In this document: positions 14,168 through 30,456 of the stretch, in pieces
Position numbering within the stretch: position 1 is the first letter of the stretch
How the letters are laid out: every line of letters starts with the position of its first letter
Assembly: GCA_001872545.1 (NCBI GenBank)
Contig: MNWN01000015.1
Span: 1 to 32,990 of the forward strand
Reading direction: 5' to 3'
Source: Parcubacteria group bacterium CG1_02_58_44
GTDB lineage: Bacteria > Patescibacteriota > Patescibacteriia > SG8-24
Length of the DNA: 32,990 nucleotides
Position numbers and translations under genes: made by a program
The notes under the pieces: generated by a model
Seen by the model: the letters and a program-made list of their open reading frames with translations, nothing else
What the model was told of the DNA's origin: nothing
Database searches by the model: none

Positions 14168-16138
14168 ATGACGAAAGAGAAGAGCCGCAAGTCGAACGGC
14201 AAGCCGACCAAAAAAAAACGAGCCTCAACCGACGGGCAGCGACCGAAAAAATCGACTGCCGCCGTCAGGTGGGCGGCATTTTTTATACTAGTCGCAGCGG
14301 TACTGGTCGGAACCGCGCTGGTTCTGCTGGGCAGGGCGCCGGAGGGAGAGATCCGCTCCGGGGTCAGCGTCGGACCGATCGACCTGGGCAGCAAGACCGT
14401 CGATCAGGCTGAGCTGGAGCTGGCTCGATTCATCGGCGACTACCGACTGACCTTCGTCCTGCCCGATGCTCAACCGGCCCTCGGCCCGTTCGTCGGCGAG
14501 GAGAGTCCGATCAGGTTCGAATCGGGAATCGCTATCGAATTGGCCTACGGCATCGGGCGCTCAAAGAATCCGTTCGTCTCTCTGGTCCAACGCCTGAAGT
14601 CGGCAACCTTCGGCCTGAACGTCTCGATCCCCTTCTCGCTCGACGAAACGCTTCTGCTGGACGAGCTGACCGCCGACCTGGGCACCGAAGTCAGGCCGGC
14701 CGAGGATGCCAGCCTGCGCATCTCAGTCGAGGACAGCGGACAGTACGATATCTCGATCCAGCCGGAAAAGGCGGGCATCAACTTCGATCGGCTGCTGGCC
14801 GTCGCCGAGGTGCGCGACCGCCTGCACCGGCTGTCCGACGAACCGATCGAACTGACGATCTCCACCGAACTGCCGCACTTCACTGCCGCCGACCTGGAAC
14901 CGCTCTTGCCCGACGCCCGAGCCAGCCTGGAACTCGCTCCCCGAACTGTCCGCGCCCGCAGCCTGACCTGGACCGTATCGCGACGGCACATTGCCGACTG
15001 GCTGATGCCCACCGACGACGGCGGCCGCATCCACCTGACGTTCGACCAGGAAAAGGTCTCCAAACACCTCGAGACCTACGCCTCGTCAATGGCGGTCAGC
15101 CCGACAGACGCGGTCTTCGAGATGACCGACGGCCGCGTGACCAAGTTTTCGCCCAGCGTCGATGGAGAGAAGCTCGACCTAGAAAAGTCATACGAGATCC
15201 TGCTGCAGGAGCTGTCGCCTGCCGCCGAGCCGACCTCCGGCACGATCGAACTGCCGGTCACCGTGGCCTATCCTGACGTACCGACCGAAAAATCCAATCC
15301 TTACGGGATTAAAGAAATCCTCGGTGTAGGATCGTCCAACTTCAAGGGCAGCCCGTCCAACCGCCGCCACAACATCGCACTGGGTGCCTCGTCGCTCAAC
15401 GGCCTGCTGGTCGCGCCGGGCGAAGTCTTTTCCCTGGTAGGCGCCCTGGGTGAAATCGACGGCGAGCATGGCTATCTGACGGAACTGGTCATCAGGGACA
15501 ACAAGACCACTCCCGAATTCGGCGGAGGACTATGCCAGATCGGCACCACAACCTTTCGCACTGTGCTGGCCGCCGGACTGCCGGTCACCGAACGACGCAA
15601 CCATTCCTACCGCGTCTCCTACTATGAACGCGACGGCAACGGCGACTACATGGGGCCGGGTAAGGACGCGACCATCTACGACCCGTCGCCCGACTTCAAG
15701 TTCACGAACGACACCGGACATCACATCCTCATCATGACCAACATCACCGGCGACAGGATCTCGTTCACTTTCTGGGGCGTGAGCGACGGCCGCCGGGCAA
15801 AGCAGACCGATGCGGTCATCCTGAGCCAGACCGCGCCACCGCCCAAGAAGGTCATCCTGACCACCGACCTGCCGGTCGGACAGGAAAAGTGCACCGAGCT
15901 TGCGCATGCCGGAGCCAAGGCCGTCTTCACCTACACGGTCACCATGGCCGACGGAGAGGTCCGCAAGGAGGACATCTTCAGCCAGTACAAACCCTGGCAG
16001 GAGGTCTGCCTGCTGGGCGCCACACCGGAGGACATAGTCGCCTCGCAGGAGCAGGCGATCCCGACCGACGAGACGGCGGAAACGACGACGCCGGACGCAG
16101 AAACGCCTGCCGTTCCAGCGGCACCGCCGGAGGGCTAG
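14168..16138 (+). CDS. VanW family protein with PG-binding-like domains, 656 aa
   Basis: A membrane-anchored cell-envelope protein. A basic Lys/Arg-rich cytoplasmic tail (1-32) precedes one membrane helix (about 33-55), which leaves the rest outside. Residues about 60-330 form two similar putative peptidoglycan-binding (PG_binding_4-like) regions. The VanW domain is at about 395-540: NIALGASSLNGLLVAPGEVFS, EFGGGLCQIGTT, RRNHSYRVSYY and the D-A-T-I-Y-D motif, all family hallmarks. The last 35 residues are Thr/Pro/Ala-rich and acidic. VanW proteins accompany vancomycin resistance in some Firmicutes but are widespread in Patescibacteria, where a wall-related role is likely and the reaction unknown. 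It ends in TAG just before a strong terminator. Confidence 0.9.
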   Translation: MTKEKSRKSNGKPTKKKRASTDGQRPKKSTAAVRWAAFFILVAAVLVGTALVLLGRAPEGEIRSGVSVGPIDLGSKTVDQAELELARFIGDYRLTFVLPDAQPALGPFVGEESPIRFESGIAIELAYGIGRSKNPFVSLVQRLKSATFGLNVSIPFSLDETLLLDELTADLGTEVRPAEDASLRISVEDSGQYDISIQPEKAGINFDRLLAVAEVRDRLHRLSDEPIELTISTELPHFTAADLEPLLPDARASLELAPRTVRARSLTWTVSRRHIADWLMPTDDGGRIHLTFDQEKVSKHLETYASSMAVSPTDAVFEMTDGRVTKFSPSVDGEKLDLEKSYEILLQELSPAAEPTSGTIELPVTVAYPDVPTEKSNPYGIKEILGVGSSNFKGSPSNRRHNIALGASSLNGLLVAPGEVFSLVGALGEIDGEHGYLTELVIRDNKTTPEFGGGLCQIGTTTFRTVLAAGLPVTERRNHSYRVSYYERDGNGDYMGPGKDATIYDPSPDFKFTNDTGHHILIMTNITGDRISFTFWGVSDGRRAKQTDAVILSQTAPPPKKVILTTDLPVGQEKCTELAHAGAKAVFTYTVTMADGEVRKEDIFSQYKPWQEVCLLGATPEDIVASQEQAIPTDETAETTTPDAETPAVPAAPPEG

Positions 16139-16689: not shown

Positions 16690-17070
16690 ACCAAAAATCT
16701 CAAAAAACCAAAACACCCCAGAGGTTCGCGCTCAAGAAGTTAGCTCATAGGAGACCTCGAGCCGGAGCCCGAAAATCCCTATTAGCGCACTCCATGCTTG
16801 TCGTGAGCGCGAAACACCGAGGTGTTCCGTCGCCAAGCGCAACGGACCGCCGCTGCAACTGACGTGGAAATTTACCACGCTTCCAAGCACCTGTAAAGTC
16901 GAGACCTGCCGATAGTACGAGATAGAAGGAAATTTCGCTAGACCTTGAGAAAAAACGACCGTACCTAAAACGATCCTCGCTTACCACCCTAACTTTAAGC
17001 GACGAAAGTCGTGACGATAGTCCAAATCTCCGCTTATTTATGCCAAAATTGAACCGAAGATGTCCAAGGA
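16690..17070. other. Gene-poor stretch with a long inverted repeat
   Basis: No supported protein gene. A minus-strand frame at 16745-17080 exists but has no ribosome binding site and looks like chance. TTCGCGCTCA (16725-16734) is repeated inverted as TGAGCGCGAA (16804-16813), enclosing about 70 nt with further complementarity, so a structured RNA is possible. No promoter clearly matches it. Confidence 0.4.
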
Positions 17071-17073
17071 CAC

Positions 17074-17102
17074 TTGACAATCTTGTGTCAGTGTGCTATA
17101 AA
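17074..17102 (+). promoter_or_regulatory. Strong promoter of the tRNA-like RNA
   Basis: A perfect TTGACA (17074-17079), a 17-nt spacer ending TGC, and TATAAA (17097-17102). Transcription should start at about 17109-17110, immediately before the closing stem of the RNA. Confidence 0.8.
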
Positions 17103-17108
17103 TACTTG

Positions 17109-17397
17109 TCAGCGTTGCCATGCAAAACGGAGCATGCGTCCAGAGATGGATGCAACGAGAGCGATCTCGGTGCGGCATGGGTTCCGGCGCGCGAGCGTGG
17201 GCGCAGACCCCGCAAGCGGAACGGGGGTTCGAATCCCCCCAACGTTGCTGAATTCCAGCTGTGAAGTCTGAAACTCCGGGAGGTCCCTTATGGGACCGAT
17301 GGAACCGAGAGGATCGTCCGCAGCTGGTCGGGGACAAACTACCAATGACGGTAGTCTCCCTAAGGCCTCACTTCTTCTAGGTGGGGCGTTTTTCTTT
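17109..17397 (+). ncRNA. Structured RNA with a tRNA-like four-way junction
   Basis: This is about 290 nt from a strong promoter to a strong terminator, with no credible ORF. The 5' 137 nt fold into a four-way junction whose helices abut with no unpaired bases: AGCGTTG (17111-17117) pairs with CAACGTT (17240-17246, one G-U); CCATGC (17118-17123) with GCATGG (17175-17180); GTTCCG (17181-17186) with CGGAAC (17217-17222); and GGGGG (17223-17227) with CCCCC (17235-17239) around TTCGAAT, a textbook tRNA T-loop. Arm 1 holds TGCGTCC/GGATGCA (17135-17154) and CGAGA-GCGA-TCTCG (17156-17169). Arm 2 holds CGC-GCGA-GCG. The 3' part has CCAGCTG (17255-17261) with CAGCTGG (17321-17327), enclosing GGTCCC-TTAT-GGGACC. 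The length and lack of an anticodon loop exclude an ordinary tRNA. No tmRNA D-loop, RNase P or SRP core motif was found. A divergent tmRNA relative or a new RNA class are the options. Confidence 0.75.
17365..17397 (+). terminator. Terminator of the tRNA-like RNA
   Basis: GCCTCAC (17365-17371) pairs with GTGGGGC (17381-17387) and is followed by GTTTTTCTTTT. Confidence 0.8.
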
Positions 17398-17433: not shown

Positions 17434-17473
17434 TTCACTTTGCCGCGCGAAAACGATATGCTGAAGCGGCAAA
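17434..17473 (+). promoter_or_regulatory. clpP promoter within an inverted repeat
   Basis: TTCACT (17434-17439), a 17-nt spacer and TATGCT (17457-17462). TTTGCCGC (17439-17446) and GCGGCAAA (17466-17473) form an 8-bp inverted repeat around the -10 box, a placement expected of a repressor operator. The 5' UTR would be about 27 nt. Confidence 0.5.
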
Positions 17474-17495: not shown

Positions 17496-18098
17496 ATGAA
17501 AAATCCGTACACGATCTCGTCCCAGATCCTAATTCCGACGGTCATCGAGAAGACCGCGCACGGCGAACGTGCCTACGACATCTACTCGCGCCTGCTCAAG
17601 GACCGCATTATCTTTCTGGGCGACGGCATCGACGACCACGTCGCCAACATCATCATCGCCCAGCTGCTCTTCCTGGATAGCCAGGACAAGACCAAGGACA
17701 TCAAGCTTTACATCAACTCACCGGGCGGATCTGTGACCGCCGGTCTGGCGATCTACGACACCATGCAGTACATCAAGCCGGACGTGGCCACGATCTGCGT
17801 AGGCATGGCGGCCTCGATGGGTGCGGTACTGCTCACGGCCGGCGCCAAGGGCAAGCGCTTTGTCCTGTCTAACTCCGAAGTCATGATCCACCAAGTCATG
17901 GGCGGAGCCGAGGGTCAGGCCACGGACGTCAAGATCCGAGCCGAACGCATCCTCAGGATGAAGGACTCGCTGAACGGCATCCTGGCCAAGCACTGCGGAC
18001 AGAAATTCGAGAAGGTCGAGAAGGACGCGGACCGCGACTACTTCATGTCGGCCGAGGAGGCGGTCAAGTACGGGCTGGTCGACAAGATCATCAAGTAA
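17496..18098 (+). CDS. clpP: ATP-dependent Clp protease proteolytic subunit ClpP, 200 aa
   Basis: The serine peptidase chamber of the Clp protease, working with a Clp ATPase to degrade damaged or tagged proteins in the cytoplasm. The catalytic triad is intact: S107 in GMAASMGA, H132 in MIHQVMGG, and D181 in DRDYFM. The usual MIHQP Pro is Val here. NSPGGSV at 74-80 forms the oxyanion-hole strand. The length is normal and there is little or no propeptide. No Clp ATPase gene adjoins. The start has no Shine-Dalgarno sequence. The gene is a single unit with its own promoter (with a possible operator) and terminator. Confidence 0.97.

Positions 18099-28952: not shown

Positions 28953-30456
<1,504 letters not shown>

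Follow-up and report, generated by a model that had tools for sequence, protein, structure and literature searches.

A genus-restricted structured RNA gene with a putative tRNA-like 5' module upstream of clpP in Patescibacteria

We describe an RNA gene located directly upstream of clpP in the window, the 32,990-nt stretch of DNA analysed here, corresponding to contig C47 in a draft assembly of 1.06 Mb that comprises 51 contigs and is 95% complete. Analysis of the window together with the genome of a sister species shows that positions 17111-17397 constitute a structured and independent RNA gene, equipped with a predicted promoter and terminator of its own, that the RNA structure has been kept by selection, and that the RNA is not a tRNA, a tmRNA, an RNase P RNA or a coding gene. 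As judged from sequence, the gene is best filed as a genus-restricted new gene for a tRNA-mimic type of non-coding RNA with a putative function. The RNA may act in trans as a stand-alone molecule, its 5' module imitating the acceptor/T-arm elbow of a tRNA and so binding a factor that handles tRNAs; we give this reading about an even chance of being right.

Results

Promoter and terminator of the RNA gene

The gene order in this part of the window is VanW-domain protein, 124-aa minus-strand ORF, minus-strand hairpin RNA candidate, tRNA-like RNA (17111-17397) and clpP. The genes and signals are listed below.

14168-16138: VanW-domain protein gene, upstream of the RNA gene
Between the VanW-domain gene and the minus-strand hairpin RNA candidate, minus strand: ORF of 124 aa, no Pfam match
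17074-17079, plus strand: -35 hexamer TTGACA, read from the sequence; unchanged in the sister genome, with the same 17-nt spacing
17094-17102, plus strand: extended -10 element TGC-TATAAA (TATAAA at 17097-17102), read from the sequence; unchanged in the sister genome
17111, plus strand: likeliest first nucleotide, an A 8 nt past the -10 element, predicted from promoter spacing and purine preference; 17109-17110 are possible too
17365-17397, plus strand: intrinsic terminator, called by the scanner and kept in the sister
17434-17462, plus strand: separate clpP promoter TTCACT-17-TATGCT, from sequence and alignment; both hexamers identical in the sister
17496-18098, plus strand: clpP (PF00574, 1.9e-85)

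The first-pass annotation, made from the window sequence by itself, had proposed a TTGACA-17-TATAAA promoter and a terminator at 17365-17397, and both held up on comparison. The promoter is present at 17074-17102, and its hexamers, spacing and TGC are identical in the sister while the letters of the spacer differ; the automatic promoter scanner missed it because it demands T as the final -10 base. The predicted start at 17111 coincides with base 1 of the acceptor-like stem described below, and the predicted transcript measures about 275-285 nt. Among named genomes, the proteins nearest to ClpP are mostly from Patescibacteria, e.g. Uhrbacteria, Magasanikbacteria and Buchananbacteria, which would place the host in the same group.

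Other features of the window were also recorded. A complete 16S rRNA gene lies at 28953-30454, and no tRNA was called in the whole window. Another likely RNA gene lies on the minus strand at 16690-16862; it folds into a long, interrupted hairpin (MFE -76 kcal/mol, z = -4.5, equally good folds in 0 of 200 shuffles) and has a U-rich tail and, at 16897-16869, a promoter-like TTTACA-17-TAAATT. The region 16700-16900 around it is 88% identical in the sister genome. The shape of this hairpin recalls 6S RNA, and the Rfam search gave no 6S match. Its core motif CTCCATGCTTGTCG also occurs between VanW and clpP in a genome of another family (G012), and an extended core motif is present in four IMG/VR viral contigs.

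Conservation and covariation between two species

A DNA search of relatives found a homologue at the same locus in the sister species (G001; 80% identity, E = 4e-71), which is the sole other species of the genus compared, and all comparison rests on these two sequences. Identity reaches 86.9% in the tRNA-like 5' half and 91.5% in P5, the terminator is 84% identical, and the flanking spacers are only 68.5% and 69.0% identical; clpP is 82.6% identical, with 90 of its 106 changes at third codon positions. A structure-guided alignment that reproduces both sequences exactly contains 79 pairs, of which 64 are unchanged, 8 are changed on one side and still paired, 5 are changed on both sides and still paired, and 2 are broken. 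With the same substitutions placed at random and sites treated as independent, the expectation is 0.8 for double changes (P = 2.4e-4) and 10.4 for breaks (P = 1.5e-4). Covariation is strong within the 3' half, where 4 doubles and no break occur, with gap placement in the lower P6 stem following the structure, and modest in the 5' half alone (1 double, P = 0.13; 1 break, P for breaks 0.03).

Fold of the RNA and its likeness to tRNA

In the MFE fold of the window RNA, four helices abut with zero spacers (17111-17117/17240-17246, 17118-17123/17175-17180, 17181-17185/17218-17222 and the T-arm 17223-17239). Folding of the whole RNA gave z = -3.9, with an equally good fold in 1 of 200 shuffles, and the tRNA-like half folded alone gave z = -2.4. 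The parts of the RNA are as follows.

17111-17117, plus strand: P1, acceptor-like 5' strand, pairing with 17240-17246; an extra pair 17110-17247 is possible
17118-17123, plus strand: P2, D-arm-like 5' strand, pairing with 17175-17180
17124-17134, plus strand: D-loop-like internal strand, from the alignment; putative elbow role
17135-17154, plus strand: P2a hairpin with GAGA loop, in both folds; one U-A to U-G change
17156-17169, plus strand: P2b hairpin, with GCGA loop in the window and 6-nt loop in the sister; one A-U to G-U change
17181-17222, plus strand: P3, outer stem GUUCC/GGAAC of 5-6 bp, from the window MFE fold; the sister gives no support
17223-17239, plus strand: T-arm GGGGG-UUCGAAU-CCCCC, 5 bp with UUCRANY loop; in the sister one G-C to G-U change and an identical loop
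17240-17254, plus strand: acceptor-like 3' strand followed by G-CUGAAUU, no CCA; the sister reads G-CUAAAUU
17255-17327, plus strand: P5, long interrupted hairpin, the best conserved part (91.5%); 9-nt apical deletion in the sister
17330-17361, plus strand: P6 hairpin with invariant AAUGAC loop and 4 double compensatory changes

The helices had been described in the first-pass annotation as a closed four-way junction bearing one arm of tRNA type and further GNRA-capped stems. The tRNA-type arm is present at 17223-17239 as a 5-bp T-arm with a UUCRANY loop, the form found in tRNAs; its loop UUCGAAU is invariant in the sister and identical to that of many tRNAs in the same genome. Pair probabilities of P1 and of the T-arm are 0.71-1.0 in both genomes and about 0.8-1.0 in the sister, where both stay probable, and P1 contains one G-U to A-U change. 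P2 shows a compensatory change at 17118-17180 (C-G to U-A), with a probability of 0.92 in the window and 0.15 in the sister. For P3 the probability in the sister falls to 0.01 and the outermost pair is broken (G-C to G-A); its interior, which occupies the anticodon-arm position, is conserved and GC-rich. The cloverleaf lies 3.5 kcal/mol above the MFE in the sister. P1, P2 and the T-arm are supported by the comparison, P3 is not. With P3, and even P2, disfavoured in the sister, the stack of acceptor-like stem and T-arm is secure and the four-way junction likely but unproven. Among the GNRA-capped stems, the GAGA loop is conserved and the GCGA loop of P2b is not. In the D-loop-like strand, the GG at 17129-17130 is kept amid changed neighbours (AAAACGGAG in the window, CAACUGGUG in the sister). 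These data support, and leave unproven, an arrangement in which the acceptor-like stem would be continuous with a canonical T-arm and the conserved GG would be offered to the T-loop, giving a tRNA elbow. The earlier proposal of a tRNA mimic, with aminoacyl-tRNA factors or RNase P as the putative partners it named, would be the best reading given the architecture, the conserved T-loop and the conserved GG in the D-loop position.

The likeness to tRNA could instead be accidental, the RNA being a real structured trans-acting RNA with a T-arm that is no more than a stable GC hairpin and with its activity residing in P5/P6. In line with this, the top conservation and the best covariation are found in P5/P6, and the P3 helix is not conserved. 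We searched 60,000 dinucleotide shuffles of the GC-rich segment with a descriptor that combines a T-arm (5 bp, UUCRANY loop) with three helices abutting in the junction, one of them a 7-bp acceptor stem. The T-arm alone appeared in 205 shuffles, as an accident would allow, and the T-arm with an abutting 7-bp stem in 26. However, the T-arm, abutting acceptor stem and D-like arm appeared together in none, nor did the full descriptor, which within the 33-kb window occurs once, at the RNA gene. T-loop and GG are moreover both invariant despite 13% divergence of the 5' half between the two species. We consider an accidental likeness unlikely, although it is the strongest competitor of the elbow-mimic reading.

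RNase Z and the processing of the RNA

The 5' half might instead be a processing module as in MALAT1/mascRNA, where tRNA nucleases would release a 3' sRNA (P5-P6) with a defined 5' end. A tRNA-like part is here joined to a separate structured part, the top sub-threshold Rfam match is mascRNA-menRNA (19.6 bits), and RNase P RNA is encoded in the genome. RNase Z is the usual enzyme cutting at the 3' end of an acceptor-like strand. However, the best matches to the RNase Z profile TIGR02651 reached 20-28 bits against a cut-off of 293 in the two genomes, which are both drafts, so that the absence is not certain; of these, the two from the window genome belong to a nuclease of the beta-CASP type and to a ComEC-like protein. 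Without a detected RNase Z, a 3' cut of the MALAT1 kind is unlikely. In addition, both genomes encode CCA in all of their detected tRNA genes (40 of 40 in each), so that the usual route through RNase Z seems not to be used, and a transcript that starts where predicted has no leader for RNase P to remove. Release of a 3' sRNA by this route is in our judgement quite improbable.

Regarding the tRNAs of the genus themselves, the lack of a detected RNase Z together with the 40 of 40 CCA-encoding genes fits an RNase Z-free tRNA 3' maturation.

Relation to clpP

A role as cis-acting leader or attenuator of clpP would agree with the position of the RNA, which in both species immediately precedes clpP on the same strand, and with its ending in an intrinsic terminator. 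However, the conserved clpP promoter at 17434-17462, which the scanner did not flag (8 of 12 consensus matches), lies between that terminator and clpP, and the other family members checked have different clpP upstream neighbours without the RNA. An alternative pairing of anti-terminator type was not apparent on unsystematic inspection. With a terminator and a separate promoter intervening, cis-control of clpP is unlikely, and we hold a leader function to be very improbable.

Comparison with known RNA classes

The first-pass annotation had allowed for a new RNA class and had reported no anticodon loop, tag ORF or tmRNA D-loop. The covariance search against Rfam agrees with the former, as no family reached threshold for the RNA and no strong match to a known class was obtained; the three elements are indeed absent. 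ARAGORN found neither a tRNA nor a tmRNA in the RNA. A tRNA was rejected since the RNA has no anticodon loop, a GC-rich insert in P3 instead, and no CCA, and a missing or split tRNA was rejected since 40 tRNA genes are listed in each genome. Because the RNA encodes no CCA while 40 of 40 tRNAs do, it is very unlikely to be aminoacylated, and factors needing an aminoacylated CCA end are unlikely as partners.

The suggestion of a tmRNA relative found no support. The genome carries a separate full-length tmRNA elsewhere (116.6 bits, CCA-ended, alignable end to end), missed by ARAGORN, and the RNA has no CCA, tmRNA D-loop or conserved tag ORF. When tmRNA models were run on the RNA, only the 17-nt T-arm aligned, with 11.7 bits against a threshold of 84 for beta_tmRNA and 10.4 against 47 for the permuted form, and non-triplet indels between the two species interrupt any long tag frame. 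The RNase P RNA gene of the genome likewise lies elsewhere (170 bits). For bacterial Y RNA, no match to the TROVE/Ro60 protein (PF05731) was found in the ~95% complete genome, so a Y RNA partnership is absent, and the fold has no Y RNA-type terminal stem joining 5' and 3' ends outside the tRNA-like domain. Coding on the minus strand was rejected because the ORFs of 99 and 109 aa are broken in the sister by indels of 1, 2 and 9 nt. A Shine-Dalgarno GGAGG in P5, possible by sequence, was rejected as the sister does not keep it.

A decaying tRNA or tmRNA copy, or a tRNA gene broken by inserts, would account for the tRNA-like outline and for the tRNA-Cys not found in either draft genome, but it is extremely improbable given the strong constraint with compensatory changes, the lack of an anticodon loop, the replacement of the GCA-bearing hexaloop of the window by CAUAGA in the sister, and the intact tmRNA elsewhere; the missing tRNA-Cys is likely explained by assembly gaps because both drafts are without other needed tRNAs too.

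Separately, an odd second tRNA-Gly(CCC) occurs in the window genome (G000 C33:12617-12684), with a weak tRNA score of 33 bits and mismatches in T-stem and acceptor; it is possibly a non-translating or decaying tRNA.

Distribution of the RNA

The DNA search of relatives found the RNA in the sister species only. A covariance model of the 3' half recovered only the two known copies in 381 genomes of the class and 380 phylum-wide genomes, and one of the 5' half no further copy in the 381 class genomes or in 37 relatives; as models built from two sequences, both would miss strongly diverged copies. The 5'-half model, made from the two RNAs only, matched a tRNA-Ser/Leu gene at 27 of 28 checked non-self loci elsewhere, which speaks for the likeness of this half to tRNA. 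One stretch had no tRNA call, and matches beyond these 28 were classed as tRNA by their length of 76-93 nt. The RNA is absent upstream of clpP in the other family and order members checked and in G012, where VanW, the minus-strand hairpin and clpP occur in the same order without the tRNA-like RNA, which suggests a gain in this genus or a loss elsewhere. The phage search gave no match to the RNA. In viral contigs, a search with two patterns gave one 19-nt chance match, confirmed by neither covariance model, and a 14-nt pattern, too short to be specific, gave chance-level matches only.

Discussion

In the elbow-mimic reading, transcription would start at base 1 of the acceptor-like stem and thus no 5' trimming would be needed. 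The 5' module would be neither charged nor decoded, since it has no CCA and no anticodon. It could serve as an anchor docking on a reader of the acceptor/T-arm elbow (candidates are RNase P, the ribosome and enzymes that modify the T-loop), and P5 and P6 in the 3' half may provide a second binding site; with two sites and putative factor binding, the RNA might act as a scaffold or decoy. Against this reading stands that the locus is linked to no partner protein, and a part in a universal machine is made less likely by the RNA's restriction to one genus. More tentatively, and in our view rather unlikely, the RNA would represent a previously unrecorded bacterial class, in which an uncharged, leaderless 5' tRNA elbow serves as docking handle in a very small genome without detectable RNase Z, RNase P and the ribosome being examples of what it might hold or inhibit.

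To our knowledge, few stand-alone RNAs made by a cell itself mimic tRNA, the familiar cases being tmRNA, bacterial Y RNA and vertebrate mascRNA. If the elbow-mimic reading is true, this compact case in a genus with ~1-Mb genomes shows that tRNA-mimic modules arise independently, and it offers a simple system in which to look for the reader of an uncharged elbow. The gene also suggests that structured RNAs confined to single lineages of Patescibacteria are incompletely catalogued.

Among known systems, mascRNA/menRNA (RF01684; vertebrate MALAT1 and MEN-beta) share with the RNA a linker-free acceptor-like stem and T-arm, a conserved GG facing the T-loop, the lack of a working anticodon and the joining to another RNA part. 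Human mascRNA has no junction linkers, is nevertheless L-shaped with an elbow formed by two conserved D-loop guanosines, and is not aminoacylated (PMC11693755); a linker-free junction can therefore still give an L-shape with an elbow. However, mascRNA is an animal RNA and our RNA scores 19.6 bits against a threshold of 42.5; the mascRNA module is excised from the 3' end of a precursor by RNase P and RNase Z, whereas the module described here lies at the 5' end; and the module measures about 137 nt here as against 56-60 in mascRNA/menRNA. YrlA, a bacterial Y RNA, combines a domain like the D, T and acceptor arms with a second domain and is modified by TruB and DusA (PMC8394870). It resembles the present RNA as a bacterial non-coding RNA with a tRNA-like domain plus a second domain, but its tRNA-like domain lies inside the stem of its 5' and 3' ends, whereas here the module starts the RNA, and there is no Rfam match. 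tmRNA (RF00023) likewise places a tRNA-like acceptor/T-arm without anticodon arm in a larger RNA, and differs by the CCA, conserved tag ORF and tmRNA D-loop that our RNA does not have and by its separate gene in the genome. tRNA-Ser/Leu, which is matched by the 5'-half covariance model, has the anticodon loop, CCA and junction linkers that are missing here, whereas the RNA has two extra hairpins in the D-arm position and a 3' domain. Finally, viral 3' tRNA-like structures reach the tRNA shape by other means (PMC4810234), as does the yjdF riboswitch (PMC9142559); the RNA has no Rfam homology to either and differs from both in not being a viral 3' end or an mRNA leader.
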